From a virus: 32,844 nt of DNA. A program made the translations under genes and the position numbers. Of this stretch, positions 28,057 to 32,844 are shown piece by piece. Location of the stretch: positions 1-32,844 of IMG/VR virus record IMGVR_UViG_3300018757_000036. One strand, 5' to 3'. How positions within the stretch are numbered: position 1 is the stretch's first letter; the number at the start of each line of letters is the position of its first letter. The notes beneath the pieces were generated by a model. That model worked only from the letters and a program-made list of their open reading frames with translations, ran no database searches and was not told where the DNA came from.

Positions 28057-28416
28057 TCACCCTTTCGATTTATCTCGCACGCCATCGCCTCGCCGGCGAC
28101 TTAATACACGTATTTCCAGTTCATTGGCTTTGCTCATATCAATCTGCTCGGCAAATCTCGCCCATAGGGGCACATATCGGTAGCTGCTTGTTTCTCGGGA
28201 ACTGTATACATAGGCAGCTGGCTTCTCCTGTTCTCCTACGGGGCAACCAAGCAATGCACAACGCCTGTACGTCAGCAAAATGTCGGCCACCGGTTCTGGG
28301 GCGCCTGCCCATATGCCATCCCAAACCCATTCGCCGTTAATCTCGATCTGGCGCGGTATTAGGCAGGGCATCCGGGATGCTTTCGCCTGGGATTTGTTTA
28401 ACCACAGCTTACGCAT
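28057..28416 (-). CDS. Hypothetical protein next to replication initiator
   Basis: 119 residues. P-C-L-I-P-R-Q-I-E-I-N-G-E-W-V-W-D-G, L-L-T-Y-R-R-C-A and Y-V-P-L-W-A-R-F-A are visible but no known domain. It overlaps the initiator stop by 8 bases, so is translationally coupled to it. A basic tail ends the protein. Confidence 0.65.
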   Translation of the reverse strand: MRKLWLNKSQAKASRMPCLIPRQIEINGEWVWDGIWAGAPEPVADILLTYRRCALLGCPVGEQEKPAAYVYSSRETSSYRYVPLWARFAEQIDMSKANELEIRVLSRRRGDGVRDKSKG

Positions 28417-29422
28417 CTTGGGCCTCGCTCATCTGACGGGCAAGTTTCATGTACTCTTCCATTTCAGCATCTGAAACGACTAGACCGTCCGTGACACTTG
28501 GAACTACCTCAATTTTTGCCTTCCCCGAAGCCCCCTGCGATCTGCCACGCTGGCCTCTTGTCTTGTTACGCATTTCGATAACCAGCTTGGGGAACTTGTC
28601 GCGAAAGGAGGAAGCGCTCATGATGTTTGATTTCCAAAATGAGTCTGTCACAACCCAGTCCATCACTTCACGGATTAAAGTTTTGTCGCCGTGCTTGTCC
28701 TTTTCTACAAGCAACCTAAAGTCGTTTGCCCATGTCTGAAGGTTTGTATTTGCGGTTAAATGGGTCAGCCCCTCACCTTTGGCCATGTCCTCGACTTTAT
28801 CTTTGAAGTAGACTGCCATCATGTAATACGGGCTGTCTTCGCTGTAATGCGGCTTGGTACTTCCTTTTCCTTTGGTACCCTTCCCCTTTTCCTGACTTGA
28901 ATCTTGGGGCGAGTCGTCCCCTGACGGCGGCAACGACTCAGGGGTAAACTCTTTTTGGTTAGGTTGGTTTGGTTGGTTAGGTTCGGTTTGGTTCGGTAGC
29001 CCCGTGACTCTTTTGGACGTCACATTCCCGTCACGCGTGACATCTCCGTGACCATCATCGGGCTTCTTTCTCTTTTCACGTGACCGTCTCTTTCTTTCGT
29101 TGTTTTGTTCCCTTTTTTCGATAAGCCGCCCTGCATAATCAAACCAGTCGTGTATAACTAGCCCATTATCATCCTGATCTAAAAATCTAGCGTCAATGAG
29201 TACAGAAACTAATTGATCGGCATCGCCATCCCATTGCATAGCATCTGCGATGTCATCATGCTCAAACTTTGTTAAATCACCATCCTGGGCATAGTCCATA
29301 GCCCAATACCAAAGCATATGCAGAAGTCCGACCATCGTCGGAATAGACACCCCTAATTTACGTGCGCACCTTCTTGTTTTAGGGTGTCCGGGTAAGGATT
29401 GGTGACTTTCAATCCACGCCAA
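28409..29422 (-). CDS. Phage replication initiator-like protein
   Basis: About 337 residues from TTG 29422, which follows GGGAGG; an ATG at 29473 would lie inside the iteron region. The start A-W-I-E-S-H-Q-S-L-P-G-H-P-K-T-R-R-C-A-R is the usual N-terminus of phage replication winged-helix proteins. H-D-W-F-D-Y-A-G and E-K-R-E-Q-N-N-E-R follow. Then a low-complexity linker (N-Q-P-N-Q-P-N-Q, 28957-28998) and a DnaD/helicase-binding-like end (about 210-330). GTCACG repeats lie upstream and inside. No dnaC-like loader follows, so the end may recruit host helicase loader. Confidence 0.82.
   Translation of the reverse strand: MAWIESHQSLPGHPKTRRCARKLGVSIPTMVGLLHMLWYWAMDYAQDGDLTKFEHDDIADAMQWDGDADQLVSVLIDARFLDQDDNGLVIHDWFDYAGRLIEKREQNNERKRRSREKRKKPDDGHGDVTRDGNVTSKRVTGLPNQTEPNQPNQPNQKEFTPESLPPSGDDSPQDSSQEKGKGTKGKGSTKPHYSEDSPYYMMAVYFKDKVEDMAKGEGLTHLTANTNLQTWANDFRLLVEKDKHGDKTLIREVMDWVVTDSFWKSNIMSASSFRDKFPKLVIEMRNKTRGQRGRSQGASGKAKIEVVPSVTDGLVVSDAEMEEYMKLARQMSEAQDA
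29003..29084. repeat. GTCACG-type sites inside the initiator gene
   Basis: CGTGAC at 29003 and 29047, CGTCAC at 29018, the perfect palindrome GTCACGCGTGAC at 29030-29041 and CACGTGAC at 29077. They repeat the motif found upstream of the gene, in coding sequence near the linker, so origin elements could lie inside the gene as in lambda O. Confidence 0.55.
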
Positions 29423-29472
29423 ATCTATGACCTCCCTTCGGCTTGTATGGATGTACCGAGGACGTTTCACCA

Positions 29473-29510
29473 CGTCACGCCGATGTCACGCGCATGTCAC
29501 GCGTGACATG
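29473..29510. repeat. Iteron-like GTCACG repeats with 18-bp palindrome
   Basis: GTCACG starts at 29474, 29485 and 29496, exactly 11 bp apart, so on the same face of the helix. The third forms an 18-bp perfect palindrome (CATGTCACGCGTGACATG, 29493-29510). The array ends 51 bp before the initiator TTG. It fits an initiator-binding origin or an operator for self-control. Confidence 0.75.
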
Positions 29511-29539
29511 CTATACATTGATGCACAAACCCTTTTCAG

Positions 29540-29568
29540 TTGTACTGATGAAGTAATTTTGGTATAAT
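29540..29568 (+). promoter_or_regulatory. Plus-strand promoter of small RNA
   Basis: TTGTAC (29540-29545), 17-bp spacer, extended -10 TGG-TATAAT (29560-29568). No plus-strand gene lies downstream before 30724, so its product would be a small RNA. Confidence 0.55.
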
Positions 29569-29574
29569 CGAACA

Positions 29575-29636
29575 AACAATATTTTTTAAAGTTCCGACTT
29601 AGATCACGTTTCCGAGACGTGATCTTTGTTCTTTCT
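29575..29636 (+). ncRNA. Putative small RNA antisense to early gene end
   Basis: From the predicted start near 29575 a transcript of about 60 nt would end at a 9-pair hairpin AGATCACGT/ACGTGATCT (29601-29625) with TTGTTCTTT after it. It is antisense to the last codons of the gene at 29599-29793. No known RNA family recognised; existence is inferred from promoter plus terminator. Confidence 0.4.
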
Positions 29637-29793
29637 GAGGTAACCTGTTGCACGGCTCCGGTTCTTCTACTGGATCAATCCGTAAGAGCGTACCTTTGAG
29701 CGTCCTGATTCTTTTATCTAAGGCGATCATAAAATCGAGATCGTTAGAGGAATCTGCCTCCATAAACTTACGGTATAGAGAGTTGAGTTCCAT
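29599..29793 (-). CDS. Small hypothetical early protein
   Basis: 64 residues, a helical start M-E-L-N-S-L-Y-R-K-F and D-L-D-F-M-I-A-L-D-K-R-I-R-T-L-K. ATG 29793, or a TTG at 29802 overlapping the upstream TGA. Its end overlaps the small-RNA hairpin. No family recognised. Confidence 0.55.
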   Translation of the reverse strand: MELNSLYRKFMEADSSNDLDFMIALDKRIRTLKGTLLRIDPVEEPEPCNRLPQKEQRSRLGNVI

Positions 29794-29798
29794 CCTAA

Positions 29799-30005
29799 TC
29801 AATCGGCGCTGCTTGTCCCTCTGAGCAAAAACGTCCTTAATGCTTCTCCCTCCTTTCTTCGAAGTTCAGCTTCCAATCTTGCGGCTTCATTATTCATCAA
29901 ATCGTATCCTGCACTGTCCAGATGTTCGCTACGACTTAAGAAGCTTTGAATGATATTAAGCCTTGCTGTTGCTTCGCGACGCTGCTCCAATCGTTCTGGT
30001 GACAT
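29799..30005 (-). CDS. Small helical hypothetical protein
   Basis: 68 residues, nearly all helix and highly charged (S-P-E-R-L-E-Q-R-R-E-A-T-A-R-L, then E-A-A-R-L-E-A-E-L-R-R-K). GGGGGTTGGAAG precedes the ATG. Family not recognised. Confidence 0.6.
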   Translation of the reverse strand: MSPERLEQRREATARLNIIQSFLSRSEHLDSAGYDLMNNEAARLEAELRRKEGEALRTFLLRGTSSAD

Positions 30006-30017
30006 CTTCCAACCCCC

Positions 30018-30332
30018 CTAAACAATTTTTTTAACTTCAAGAAACTTCTCTCGTTCATCCATCCACTTGTCCAATGTGGATAGTCTGAATTTATAGTGAG
30101 GCTTTTGTGAATTTAAAGATCCGACCGGTATGCATGAGATTTGGCCTTCGTTTACCATTGTGTATAGCATAGGTTTTGAAACACCAATGTACTCTGCCGC
30201 CTGTTCAGCAGTAAGTGTTGCACGTCTAATCCTGTTTTGATATAAATCTTCAACCATTCCATTGATAACAGGCTGCAGTTCTTGAATCAGTCTTTGTTTT
30301 AACTCCTCAATGAAGTCAACAGTAGTAGTCAA
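30018..30332 (-). CDS. Excisionase-like DNA-binding protein (helix-turn-helix)
   Basis: 104 residues from a TTG after GGAGG. L-T-A-E-Q-A-A-E-Y-I-G-V-S-K-P-M-L-Y-T-M-V-N-E-G-Q-I is a MerR/HTH_17-type helix-turn-helix, with K-F-R-L-S-T-L-D-K-W-M at the wing. Such proteins act as excisionase partners of integrase or early regulators. The initial helix is longer than in plain Xis. Confidence 0.8.
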   Translation of the reverse strand: MTTTVDFIEELKQRLIQELQPVINGMVEDLYQNRIRRATLTAEQAAEYIGVSKPMLYTMVNEGQISCIPVGSLNSQKPHYKFRLSTLDKWMDEREKFLEVKKIV

Positions 30333-30376
30333 AAGACCACCTCCTCCTTCCTAATCATTTCCATAAAAAAAACTTG

Positions 30377-30403
30377 AATTTAATCACAAAGTGTGATTAA
30401 ATT
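30377..30403. promoter_or_regulatory. Operator-containing palindrome and terminator-like stem
   Basis: A 12-pair perfect inverted repeat around AAG whose core is TCAC-AAAGT-GTGA. On the minus strand it is followed by CAAG and eight T's, so it could also terminate cro transcription. It covers the end of the Cro-like stop codon. Confidence 0.6.
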
Positions 30404-30593
30404 AGCTATAGAAAAGTTCCTCAATTGATTTGCAATAAAACTTTGAGATCTTTAGTTTTGTTTTATCACTGCCACTTCTTTGTTTTTTTTCAAGCATTGA
30501 TAGCATACTTTGGGAGATGCCTATCTTTTGCGCTGCCTCGTAAGCGGAGAGTCCAAGCTCCTTACGAGCATTAACTAGATTTTTGTTAATCAA
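30402..30593 (-). CDS. Cro-like repressor (XRE helix-turn-helix)
   Basis: 63 residues from TTG 30593. N-A-R-K-E-L-G-L-S-A-Y-E-A-A-Q-K-I-G-I-S-Q-S-M-L-S-M-L-E is the HTH. The in-frame GTG at 30656 lies upstream of the promoter -10, so cannot be the start of that transcript; the TTG has AGGTGA upstream and gives the usual Cro length. First gene of the early operon. Confidence 0.75.
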   Translation of the reverse strand: MINKNLVNARKELGLSAYEAAQKIGISQSMLSMLEKKQRSGSDKTKLKISKFYCKSIEELFYS

Positions 30594-30618
30594 TGAAGCC
30601 TTCACCTGCCTTTCATGT

Positions 30619-30697
30619 TCACGAAACGTGATTTTTGTACCTTCATAATACATCACACTTCGTGAGCGGTCAATCCTTTTTTTATCTCATTTTGTGA
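30619..30697. promoter_or_regulatory. Three TCAC-N5-GTGA operators
   Basis: TCACGAAACGTGA (30619-30631), TCACACTTCGTGA (30653-30665) and TCTCATTTTGTGA (30685-30697, one mismatch) have centres 34 and 32 bp apart, about three helical turns. They cover the promoter of the Cro-like gene and run up to the repressor gene; a fourth copy lies at 30384-30396. Confidence 0.75.
30645..30673 (-). promoter_or_regulatory. Early promoter of the Cro-like operon
   Basis: Minus strand TTGACC -35 (30668-30673), 17-bp spacer, TATTAT -10 (30645-30650). The middle operator (30653-30665) fills the spacer, so ImmR-like protein bound there would block it. Confidence 0.75.
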
Positions 30698-30723
30698 TTT
30701 TTTATGAAGGGACGATTTTTTGG

Positions 30724-31086
30724 ATGCTAGGGAAAACCATTGCTGTTCTAAGAAAAAAGAAAAACATGACCCAGCGCGATCTAGGAAAAGCACTAGGAGT
30801 ATCAACAAGTGCAATCGCTATGTGGGAAACTGGACAAAGAGAACCAGACGCTGAAACATTGACTACAATTGCTAATTATTTCGAAGTAAGTATCGATGAA
30901 CTTTTAGGTAGAGAAGAAATACCAACCAATAAGGTATTTACTGAAGAGATTCCACCGGAGGTAAATGTATTTTTTAGAGATTTTCTATCAGCTCCGGAAG
31001 AGAGGAAAGAAGAAATGCTTCGATTCTGGAGATTTATTCAGGAAAATGAAAAGCATCGTAAACCAAGGGACAAGCAAGGGGAATAA
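30724..31086 (+). CDS. ImmR-like repressor (XRE helix-turn-helix)
   Basis: About 120 residues from ATG 30724 (M-L-G-K-T-I-A-V-L-R-K). M-T-Q-R-D-L-G-K-A-L-G-V-S-T-S-A-I-A-M-W-E is a clear HTH. The C-terminal part is short and helical (E-E-R-K-E-E-M-L-R-F-W-R) and lacks a LexA/CI-type peptidase, so the protein cannot cut itself. That agrees with the ImmA gene downstream. GAAGGGACG precedes the ATG. Represses the divergent early operon through the TCAC-N5-GTGA sites. Confidence 0.85.
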   Translation: MLGKTIAVLRKKKNMTQRDLGKALGVSTSAIAMWETGQREPDAETLTTIANYFEVSIDELLGREEIPTNKVFTEEIPPEVNVFFRDFLSAPEERKEEMLRFWRFIQENEKHRKPRDKQGE

Positions 31087-31107
31087 TGCATAAGGGGCGG
31101 ACAAAAT

Positions 31108-31605
31108 GTGATGAAATATCATACGACTCTTCTAGAAGATTGGATAGAGGAACTATACCGTGCTTTGGATATTAAATCCCCCCAAGATTTAGGGATCACA
31201 AATTTGGCTACTAAGCTAGATATTTGGGTGTACTACGTTGATACTGAAGGGCAAGGCTTCGAAAGGTTTGGAATGATGACTATCTTCATAGATCGACGTA
31301 AAAACAAAAGTGAGCAATGGATAGAATTCCTGCACGAGCTATGCCATCTTTTACGACATTCGGGAAACCAATCCTCTCTTCCGGTTGACTTCGTACGCCT
31401 CCAGGAATCGGATGCTGATAATTTTGCTCGATATGCTTCAATGCCATATTTTATGATTAGAAATTTGGATCTTGGTCATACCAGGCGAGAGGCAGCAAAC
31501 TTACTTTCAGAATTATTTTGTGTTCCGTATAAATTAGCTTATGAACGGTTGGATCAAATTAATAATCGTTACCTTTCTTCGGTGCCTATACTTCGATACC
31601 AATAA
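31108..31605 (+). CDS. ImmA/IrrE-family metallopeptidase
   Basis: 165 residues from GTG 31108 or the adjacent ATG at 31111. H-E-L-C-H (residues 76-80 from the GTG) is the zinc site, with E in L-Q-E-S-D-A-D-N-F-A-R-Y as the third ligand. In ICEBs1 and related phages ImmA cuts ImmR after DNA damage. The gene follows the repressor by 21 bp, so both are from one transcript. GGGGCGG lies upstream. Confidence 0.9.
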   Translation: MMKYHTTLLEDWIEELYRALDIKSPQDLGITNLATKLDIWVYYVDTEGQGFERFGMMTIFIDRRKNKSEQWIEFLHELCHLLRHSGNQSSLPVDFVRLQESDADNFARYASMPYFMIRNLDLGHTRREAANLLSELFCVPYKLAYERLDQINNRYLSSVPILRYQ

Positions 31606-31626
31606 AAATCTTGGAGGAGTGCAGTT

Positions 31627-32844
31627 ATGCCCTGGGTTGAAAAACGGAAAAATGGCTACCGGCTTGTAGTTGATTTGGGTACCGATCAGTTTGGTAAGCG
31701 TATCCGGAAAACTAAACCCGTAGATACAAACTCAAAGAGAGTGGCCGAAAGAGAACTAAGTAAATTTGTAGTTCAAGTGGAAGAAGAGCTAGCAAAAGGC
31801 CAGCTTAAGGAACCCAAGAAAATATCATTTAGTGAGCTAGCAGACAAATGGACAAAAATGTTTGTCTTAACAGATCTTGAATTCAAGACTCAAGAAAATT
31901 ATATATTCCAACTTGAGCGTCAGATTCTACCGCATTTTAAAAAATGGAATGATATTAGAAGTATTAAATCTATGGATATAGTTGAATTTTTACATAATAT
32001 GAAAGGAATTAAAGACCCATCTAAGCCGGCCGGAAGCCAAACAAAGATTTATGTGTATCGTGTATTGAAAAGCATATTTCTGAAAGCAACAGAATGGTAT
32101 GCCCTTGATCCCAACCCTATGGATAAGGTTAAAAAGCCAAAAGAAGAAAAGAGTTTTGAAATAAATGTTTATAGTGAAGAAGAAGCAGTGAAAGTTTTCA
32201 ATTGTCTCCAGGACGAGCCTTCCCAGTTCAGAGCATTAGTAAGCTTAGCATTTACAACTGGTATGAGAAGAGCAGAACTGCTTGGATTAGAATGGAGGCA
32301 TATTGATCTGGAAAGAGGACTGATTGCAATTAGGCAATCAATCCCGGCGTACAAGGACAAGCTACCTGTAATTAAATCACCTAAAAATAAAGGTTCGGTA
32401 AGAACAGTTTCGATCACTCCTTCTATAATTCAAGAACTTGCAGGTTTTCGAAAAGAATGGTTTAAATTCAGAACAAAAAATATTGATATTTGGCAATCGA
32501 CAAACGAATTTCTGTTCTGTAATAAATATGGAATGCCATACTACCCAAAAACATTATCTGAACAGTGGAGATCCTTTATTCAGAGAAATAAATCTCTACG
32601 TTATATTAGGTTTCACGATCTGCGCCACACATCAGTAACTATCCTAATTAACCGAGGGGTACACGCGAAAATTATATCTGAGCGTATAGGTCATTCAAAG
32701 ATAGGTACTACTATGGACGTTTACGGTCATGTTATCCGAGCTGCCGATGCAGGAGCAGCCGCAACATTTGATGATGTATTCGGGAAAGCTAATGATGAAG
32801 AACCTCAAGGTGGCACCATGGGTGGCAAAAAAGGTGGCAAATAA
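31627..32844 (+). CDS. int: Phage integrase (tyrosine recombinase)
   Basis: 405 residues. N-terminal arm-DNA-binding beta domain (P-W-V-E-K-R-K-N-G-Y-R-L, residues 1-50), core-binding helical domain (about 70-170), then catalytic domain: Arg214 in T-G-M-R-R, His330 and Arg333 in H-D-L-R-H, His356 in I-G-H-S-K and Tyr366 in D-V-Y-G-H. GGAGG precedes the ATG. It ends with Gly-Lys repeats (G-G-K-K-G-G-K), coded by three GGTGGCA-like units. The stop is the last base of the window, so the attachment site next to it is not visible. Confidence 0.93.
   Translation: MPWVEKRKNGYRLVVDLGTDQFGKRIRKTKPVDTNSKRVAERELSKFVVQVEEELAKGQLKEPKKISFSELADKWTKMFVLTDLEFKTQENYIFQLERQILPHFKKWNDIRSIKSMDIVEFLHNMKGIKDPSKPAGSQTKIYVYRVLKSIFLKATEWYALDPNPMDKVKKPKEEKSFEINVYSEEEAVKVFNCLQDEPSQFRALVSLAFTTGMRRAELLGLEWRHIDLERGLIAIRQSIPAYKDKLPVIKSPKNKGSVRTVSITPSIIQELAGFRKEWFKFRTKNIDIWQSTNEFLFCNKYGMPYYPKTLSEQWRSFIQRNKSLRYIRFHDLRHTSVTILINRGVHAKIISERIGHSKIGTTMDVYGHVIRAADAGAAATFDDVFGKANDEEPQGGTMGGKKGGK

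Follow-up and report, generated by a model that had tools for sequence, protein, structure and literature searches.

Putative initiator sites inside and upstream of a phage replication gene, and a candidate bZIP-like code for reading them

The 32,844 bases of IMG/VR virus record IMGVR_UViG_3300018757_000036 (positions 1 to 32,844, hereafter the window) carry a replication initiator gene with an array of GTCACG repeats, or iterons, just upstream of it and a second cluster of the same repeats inside it. The reading favoured here, with a probability of roughly 0.64, is that the repeats are sites of the phage's own initiator, that a basic helix of this protein would read TGAC in the manner of basic leucine zipper (bZIP) proteins, that the main origin lies within the gene, and that the upstream array would serve in repression or looping. 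The argument is built on features of the DNA itself, namely the repeats, their geometry and selective conservation, a tract of 5-base steps adjoining the in-gene cluster, and the covariation of iterons with protein residues across the family.

Iteron arrays upstream of and within the initiator gene

As the original prediction had described, three GTCACG copies on the + strand start at 29474, 29485 and 29496, 11 bp from start to start, the array ending in a perfect 18-bp palindrome, CATGTCACGCGTGACATG, at 29493-29510. An inverted copy, CGTGAC, lies at 29502. On both strands together the window holds 24 copies of GTCACG against 12.05 expected, and at the array these reach four in 40 bp and five in 90 bp, compared with maxima of two and three in 400 dinucleotide-preserving shuffles of the window. 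A scan of the whole window for 6-mers with at least four copies per 40 bp, which excluded 6-mers made of one or two letters, returned only CGTGAC and the overlapping GCGTGA, both at the upstream array. The repeats also predicted inside the gene, around 29003-29084, were confirmed as five exact GTCACG/CGTGAC copies (29003, 29030, 29036, 29047 and 29079) with GTCACA at 29019, giving six GTCAC/GTGAC sites. The features on which the argument depends are as follows.

29473..29510: upstream array of three 11-bp-phased GTCACG and an inverted copy; a putative second initiator site, probably an operator or looping site
29493..29510: palindrome CATGTCACGCGTGACATG with an everted GTCA-CGCG-TGAC core
GTCACGCGTGAC: DNA carrying the putative outward half-sites for the N domain and helix
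29003..29084: in-gene cluster, lying between the N domain and the C half, of six GTCAC/GTGAC sites spaced 32-11-7-11-15
28409..29422, - strand: replication initiator gene, 337 amino acids from TTG 29422, matching phrog_9474 and the DnaD-like phrog_2514
29430..29438, - strand: strong Shine-Dalgarno sequence AAGGGAGGT preceding the likely start TTG 29422
29132..29422, - strand: winged-helix-like N domain, residues 1-97 (AlphaFold models, mean predicted local distance difference test (pLDDT) 87.8 and 83.3)
29066..29131, - strand: codons of a long basic helix, residues 98-119, with a bZIP-like motif N107..K111..S114-R115 (from the predicted model and covariation)
28955..28999, - strand: NNACC units in tandem at period 5, some of them of 4 bases, immediately following the last in-gene iteron
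28412..28954, - strand: DnaD-like/O-like C half, presumed helicase-loading (PHROG match), strongly diverged from the C half of L002/L115
29550..29609: AT-rich stretch, GC 0.28, upstream of the array and partly kept in L115 and L116

The identification of the gene as a replication initiator was upheld by a profile match of its N-terminal half to phrog_9474, a phage replication initiation protein (E 7.5e-50, residues 19-191 of the longer reading frame), and the C half matches DnaD-like and O-like families. The start was moved. The listed open reading frame begins at GTG 29473, touching the repeats; the phrog_9474 match begins one residue past TTG 29422, at profile position 2, and the relative in phage Harrison has its annotated start at the aligned codon. 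The gene probably starts at TTG 29422, taken as residue 1, which would place the upstream array about 50-90 bp before the start codon and make it intergenic.

For comparison, 80 virus contigs with the N domain, two metagenome-assembled genome contigs, phage Harrison and the window were assembled into 84 rows; loci are given L numbers. In L115, L116 and L123 all 30 of the 30 in-gene site bases are those of the window, while only 51-53 of the 82 bases between the sites are. The spacing 32-11-7-11-15 is the same in these three and in the window, and nearly so in L126 and L130. The initiator likely binds both arrays. The in-gene geometry reappears upstream in L116: there the flanks have diverged, yet there are five sites, four of them spaced 11-7-11, which is the core of the in-gene array of the window, L115, L116, L123, L126 and L130. 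Because this spacing persists despite the diverged flanks, it seems that the same protein still uses the upstream array as a site and that the array is kept for this. Upstream spacing is 7-11-11 in the window and 7-11 in L115.

Iteron sequence changes with residues of the basic helix

After removal of near-identical linkers, 65 of 83 loci were kept, giving 66 members with the window. Some 6-mer was present in at least three copies within the 110 bp after the N domain in 49 of the 66 linkers, versus 12.3% among 1980 segments taken as controls from those contigs. The iterons fell into GTCAC (15 members, window included), TTCCG (8), GCACGT (6), GGACGT (5), GTAAC (4) and two smaller classes, with 25 of the 66 outside any class by a simple rule. 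On a poorly resolved tree the class labels need 18 changes, and none of 200 label shuffles needed so few; the low count can be attributed to the GTCAC and TTCCG groups, as GCACGT, GGACGT and GTAAC are not clustered by themselves.

Mutual information with iteron class was calculated for 53 members with a class over the 131 columns of alignment A2. (Alignment A1 consists of 55 hand-chosen rows; A2 is without L174, L150, L141, L194, L164 and L171, removed by script, and L148, removed by hand.) The excess information was 0.93 bits for N107, 0.73 for K111, 0.43 for Q106 and 0.37 for S114, compared with 0.04 for the median column. When the DNA was counted only after the +8 codon (51 members) the order was unchanged (0.94, 0.74, 0.45 and 0.37), the codons of N107 and K111 lying outside the counted DNA.

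Taking N107 as position 0, Asp107 was compared with the GGA-type TCCNNNGGA class, defined as at least one TCCNNNGGA and fewer than three TGAC: 24 members had both, two had Asp only, none had the motif only and 41 had neither, with 15 residue changes on the tree. One of the two exceptions is a misparsed row and the other is L228; L141 is a misparse in the residue-iteron tables. The borderline Asn members L116 and L142 have 1 and 2 TCCNNNGGA motifs beside 5 and 7 TGAC sites. N/K/S was found with TGAC in 12/12 cases and N/M with GCACGT in 8/8, and an aromatic residue or His at +7 agreed with TTAC in 32 of 39 N/T members (10 both, 22 neither). The aromatic residue is not forced by the iteron, because GTAACG read in that frame would introduce a stop codon. 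The correlation within the family is strong: iteron sequence changes together with residues of the basic helix, N107 and K111 foremost. In L189, L172, L167, L474 and L479 the arrays mix TGAC and TTAC and the +7 residue is His, Tyr or Leu, as if both half-sites were tolerated.

Resemblance of the helix to the bZIP basic region

The helix (modelled pLDDT about 74-80) carries the motif K-R-x-x-N-x-E-x-x-R-R-S-R, spaced as in the bZIP basic region, and its NNERKRRSR agrees with the bZIP signature (N, S/C or F at +7, R at +8) in register with NFIL3 and GCN4. A phmmer search with the 24-residue helix against the PDB, at E up to 10, gave two matches, both NFIL3 and in register (E 0.12 and 0.18). The sole match of a profile built from 23 relatives, picked among the N and T types, was GCN4 (E 5, in register), and two shuffled helix controls had none. 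In PMC8450079 and PMC7261193, bZIP proteins with NXXAAXXCR are described as reading a TGAC-type half-site and those with NxxAQxxFR a TTAC half-site. The phage family pairs N..K..S with TGAC and N..Q..Y/F/W/H mostly with TTAC, so that the helix would share with GCN4, NFIL3 and Pap1/Yap1 the register N(0)..(+4)..(+7)R(+8) and the pairing of the S type with TGAC and of Q plus an aromatic residue mostly with TTAC, the latter as in yeast Pap1. The resemblance appears to lie in this parallel of code, and no homology is claimed from the E-values.

The phage helix differs from that of bZIP proteins in having Arg for Ala at +3, in lacking a leucine zipper, in following a folded domain and in the everted arrangement of its putative half-sites. 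The bZIP proteins have their dimer part after the helix, and their half-sites are turned inward. Outward half-sites (GTCA-CGCG-TGAC) would be expected if polarity is reversed, since in the phage protein the folded domain precedes the helix.

Among bacterial proteins, the part of PMC12255303 consulted calls the repressor RptR bZIP-like, proposes that the helices of its dimer enter one major groove, as would be the case for the phage initiator, and points to TodS as a bacterial leucine-zipper protein. Unlike the phage initiator, RptR represses a defence island, and no N..S-R recognition code is given in that part. Searches of open-access literature listed no report of a bZIP-type phage initiator or of a 5-base tract, a weak negative.

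Held-out loci, isolates and the reach of the code

A scan for seven ACCNN units gave at least 126 clusters, of which, among the matches listed, 22 follow an N domain. Three of these were already in the set (L227, L251 and L252), two were near-copies (L294 and L301) and ten had no readable motif, leaving seven usable loci that had been selected only by their tract. Five of the seven fit the code: L222, L213, L232 and L224 have 4, 6, 6 and 5 TTAC with 0, 0, 1 and 0 TGAC, and L264 has three GCACGT. L228 (D, L, W) and L216 (N, K, K) do not fit, none of the classes being present. In a further scan of 89 loci, with the rules fixed beforehand, 66 were already seen or redundant; of the 23 left, 13 were unreadable, five were outside the rules and five were scored. 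Four of these five new, non-redundant cases were correct and the fifth shows none of the four signals.

Among isolates, the initiator of phage Harrison has N, K and S with GTCAC, and epsilon15, phiPSA1 and BUCT711 have D and K with 4, 4 and 3 GGAC half-sites in the gene, counted by eye. Shimadzu, Lagaffe and nd4 have E and S with GACC-like repeats, perhaps a further class; Brigit and two cyanophages offered no readable case of the code. Initiators with Glu at 0 and Ser at +4 (L464, L465, L467 and L225) have GACC/GGTC-like repeats, judged by eye, and in the three isolates an AGANN tract.

A scan with the array pattern GTCACGN5GTCACGCGTGAC gave 106 stretches. The strict motif (N; K or A at +4; S at +7) precedes the array in 6 of 104 open-frame array loci, and all six have N-domain homology. 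Many other array loci have a looser basic motif of the A-x-E-R-K-R-x-Q-R kind, noted by eye in a filtered list and uncounted against a control. The code, if real, would be limited to the family and would not extend to all phages with such arrays, and its performance on held-out data is modest.

Several observations weigh against a bZIP-like code. Seven of the 39 N/T members disagree on the +7 residue and TTAC (three of them, L167, L172 and L189, have His and mixed TGAC/TTAC arrays). Well-supported branches provide just three independent pairs, a number too small for significance. The first iteron overlaps the R113-S114-R115 codons, which confounds S114, and the information of S114 is no higher than that of the linker columns R118, D131, N108 and V128 (0.30-0.36), which are informative, as expected, because the iterons themselves are coding DNA there. 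The PDB matches to bZIP proteins are not significant by E-value, three other natural single helix fragments had no PDB match, and the Pfam bZIP domain was not found at E up to 10 in ten fragments. The helix prediction ends at 119 with no leucine heptads after it, residues 121-131 being modelled with low confidence. The rule TCC-N3-GGA as written holds in one of the isolates epsilon15, phiPSA1 and BUCT711 and fails in two, because the half-site spacing differs. Lastly, outside the family, divergent GTCAC-array loci with no detectable N domain break the code, as judged by eye: L011, L035, L073 and L093 have Tyr at +7, and L018 and L102 have Asp at 0.

Some of these points would suit a different reader of the iterons, the winged helix-turn-helix of the N domain acting as in plasmid RepA, with the basic helix adding only backbone contacts and the covariation being a by-product or hitch-hiking. 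The best fold matches of the N domain, 4pql, 4pt7 and 5kbj, which we take to be plasmid RepA proteins, are initiator N domains whose titles name an initiator, a Rep-DNA complex and a DNA binding protein. These VIA matches are weak (Z 5.4-5.6, below the safe level); Foldseek gave nothing convincing (best E 0.11) and phmmer found no match of the N domain in the PDB at E 1. According to PMC5703833, the winged helix-turn-helix of pSK41 Rep binds Rep boxes. The overlap of the S114 codon with the first iteron and the divergent loci that break the code also speak for this alternative. It is nevertheless judged rather unlikely, as no column of the folded domain is very informative about iteron class (at best 0.26-0.29 bits, M36), whereas N107 and K111 carry far more from codons outside the counted DNA.

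A tract of 5-base steps after the iterons

On the coding strand the last in-gene iteron leads directly into GGGGCTACC and a series of NNACC units (28999 to about 28955). Lag-5 self-similarity is higher in no other 50-base stretch of the window, and the tract is not AT-rich (52% AT, the same as the gene). At least four ACC at exact 5-base steps were found in the gene in 31 of the 66 members, versus 1 of 66 elsewhere in the contigs. An open search (any triple, any period from 4 to 11, a run of four) gave a period-5 run in 40/66 of the phrog_9474 family (control 0.3%), 27/37 DnaD-like phrog_8489/5708 initiators (control 0), 27/57 phrog_2447-like initiators (control 1.2%) and 6/9 GenBank relatives (control 0), with the triples chiefly ACC, AGG, CCG and AGA. 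phrog_2447 is remotely related to phrog_9474, and the N part of the phrog_8489 type is unmatched to it. Periods 10 and 11 also stand out, as a harmonic and as the iteron phase, as does period 4 in the first family (11/66) and, weakly in some sets, periods 6 and 9. Ten other frames from the ACCNN scan, picked partly for an initiator look, included nine that match initiator or loader families; among the matches listed, many of the remaining clusters are plain microsatellites or non-coding arrays.

It is improbable that the tract is a protein-level low-complexity linker or plain microsatellite with no role as DNA. It does encode an Asn/Pro/Gln-rich linker, the run length of the window is by itself not striking (reached in 59 of 1000 synonymous shuffles), and identical neighbouring units are commoner than expected (34/141 versus 14%). 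Against this, a period of 5 is not a multiple of 3, and over the 66 members the average self-similarity at lags 5 (0.389 versus at most 0.343) and 10 (0.376 versus at most 0.324) exceeds all 20 synonymous shuffles; lags 4, 9, 11, 14, 15 and marginally 6 do so by less. Different triples (ACC, AGG, AGA, CCG) moreover recur in several families, chiefly at period 5. Unfavourable to a general role are the 26 of 66 members without a period-5 run of four, and TP901-1, A118 and lambda, whose fetched stretches contain no NNACC tract. By analogy with the DnaA-trios and DnaD recognition element of B. subtilis (PMC10201434), the tract may be the stretch that opens or where the loader assembles.

Related arrangements were noted elsewhere. 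Long degenerate NNACC arrays, up to about 1 kb and mostly outside open frames, occur in L199, L200, L203, L206, L209, L212, L260 and L312, with no initiator N domain found just upstream. L302, L257, L244, L211 and their relatives L314-L393 are DnaD-like initiators with an N part unmatched to phrog_9474, in which the coding strand has GGTTA GGTAA units, placing the tract on the opposite strand, after what appear to be their own iterons.

The wider proposition, that a phage initiator family reads its origin iterons by a bZIP-type helix and that an undescribed 5-base-step tract for strand opening and helicase loading is present in several families, is put forward tentatively, at somewhat under even odds. 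The same holds for its corollary that the code (N/D at 0; K/S versus Q/aromatic at +4/+7), a parallel to that of eukaryotic bZIP proteins, arose independently, the dimer domain lying at the opposite end of the helix and the half-sites therefore pointing outward.

Placement of the origin and role of the upstream array

The original prediction had regarded the upstream array as a strong candidate for the origin and for self-repression. Both clusters do look like initiator sites; the origin is likelier inside the initiator gene, at the in-gene array and adjoining 5-base tract, because in-gene iterons are shared by the family and the tract adjoins them. At least four GTCAC/GTGAC within 150 bp upstream of the gene were found in only 3 of the 84 rows (window, L115 and L116), so that the conservation anticipated among relatives holds for close kin and is poor across the family. 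Since in-gene arrays are common there, the upstream array fits, and probably is, an operator or looping site kept in one lineage. Self-repression remains its best reading; as a consensus promoter scan found no promoter adjoining the array at its threshold, a result unfavourable to this role, we infer it only. A blastn search found no similar DNA among GenBank phages.

That the upstream array with its AT-rich neighbour is instead the phage origin, the in-gene sites being secondary, is quite improbable. The AT-rich stretch lies 40-100 bp from the array, which is the classical layout of iterons and an unwinding element. The scarcity of upstream arrays argues against this, as do phage Harrison, which has the in-gene cluster and upstream only scattered single sites, and the recurrent tract, which sits with the in-gene cluster. 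Adjoining the AT-rich stretch is a near-perfect hairpin, AGATCACGTTTCCGAGACGTGATCT (29601-29625), with T-rich DNA after it on the + strand; L115 and L116 largely retain one of its arms and the AT-rich part.

Temperate phages typically have palindromic operators upstream of their early genes, and the array was considered as an operator of another regulator (CI- or Cro-like, 30402-31086), a reading rejected as very improbable because GTCACG is absent from 29508-32844, hence from the repressor genes, and because the same motif fills the initiator gene in relatives, where iteron class follows the initiator's own residues.

Proposed mechanism and relation to known origins

In the mechanism favoured here, the basic helix, which follows the winged-helix-like N domain, would enter the major groove and read TGAC half-sites, position 0 (N107) reading the first base and +4 and +7 (K111 and S114) the second, with help from R115. 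Dimers of the N domain would place two helices on the everted half-sites GTCA-CGCG-TGAC, and further dimers would stack every 11 bp. The in-gene array would load the initiator beside a short GC-rich step and the 5-base tract, which would melt and be held single-stranded while the C half loads the helicase. At the upstream array, of similar geometry, the bound initiator might shut down transcription of its own gene or join the two arrays in a loop.

Origins inside initiator genes are already known. By its annotation, lambda O with ori-lambda has iterons within the initiator gene. SPP1 gp38 (oriL and oriR), according to PMC6316719, has iterons in the initiator gene and a second, distant array for the same protein. 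The six sites of the window lie between the N and C domains as in these systems, from which it differs in having TGAC sites at an 11-bp phase, a second array just upstream of the gene, and a tandem 5-base tract of ordinary GC content instead of an AT-rich element, AT-rich DNA being present only next to the upstream array. The RepA_N initiator of pSK41 is described in PMC5703833 as having Rep boxes centrally in rep, an N-terminal DNA-binding domain and DnaD-like features. The window initiator would share these traits, with an N-domain fold match that is weak and below the safe level, and differs in that a Pfam scan gave no family at E 0.01, so no RepA_N match, and in that an added basic helix carries the iteron-correlated residues. 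The bacterial oriC basal unwinding system, as outlined in PMC10201434 and PMC10797057, comprises DnaA boxes, the DnaA-trio and a DnaD recognition element, that is, double-strand boxes followed by a short-period tract. The likeness is one of layout only, in which binding boxes precede a short-period tract suited to single-strand binding in a strand-specific manner; the period in the window is 5, not 3, and a phage initiator takes the place of DnaA.

Other features of the gene and window

The N domains of the window and L002/L115 are 90% identical, and a search with only the C half of the window gave no match in L002/L115 at E 0.01; the full-length alignment is continuous, at 50% overall, and the last residues are alike. 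A modular exchange of the C half at or near the 5-base tract is possible. Genes for a Cro/CI-type helix-turn-helix protein, an IrrE-like protease and an integrase domain lie near the right end of the window. At the end of the Cro-like gene is a palindrome, AATTTAATCACA-AAG-TGTGATTAAATT (30377-30403), perhaps a repressor operator and unrelated to GTCACG. A tandem 12-base repeat (AACCAAAAGAAG) was seen at about 2526-2580, inside the + strand frame 2361-2957.

Implications

Because each protein's binding sites lie in its own gene, phage genomes form a ready-made table of residues against DNA targets. This table points to a short recognition code resembling that of bZIP proteins, as well as to an origin element of 5-base steps that occurs in several initiator families. 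If this is true, origins could be located and initiator specificity predicted from sequence alone, and the family would be a clear added case of bZIP-like DNA reading outside eukaryotes.
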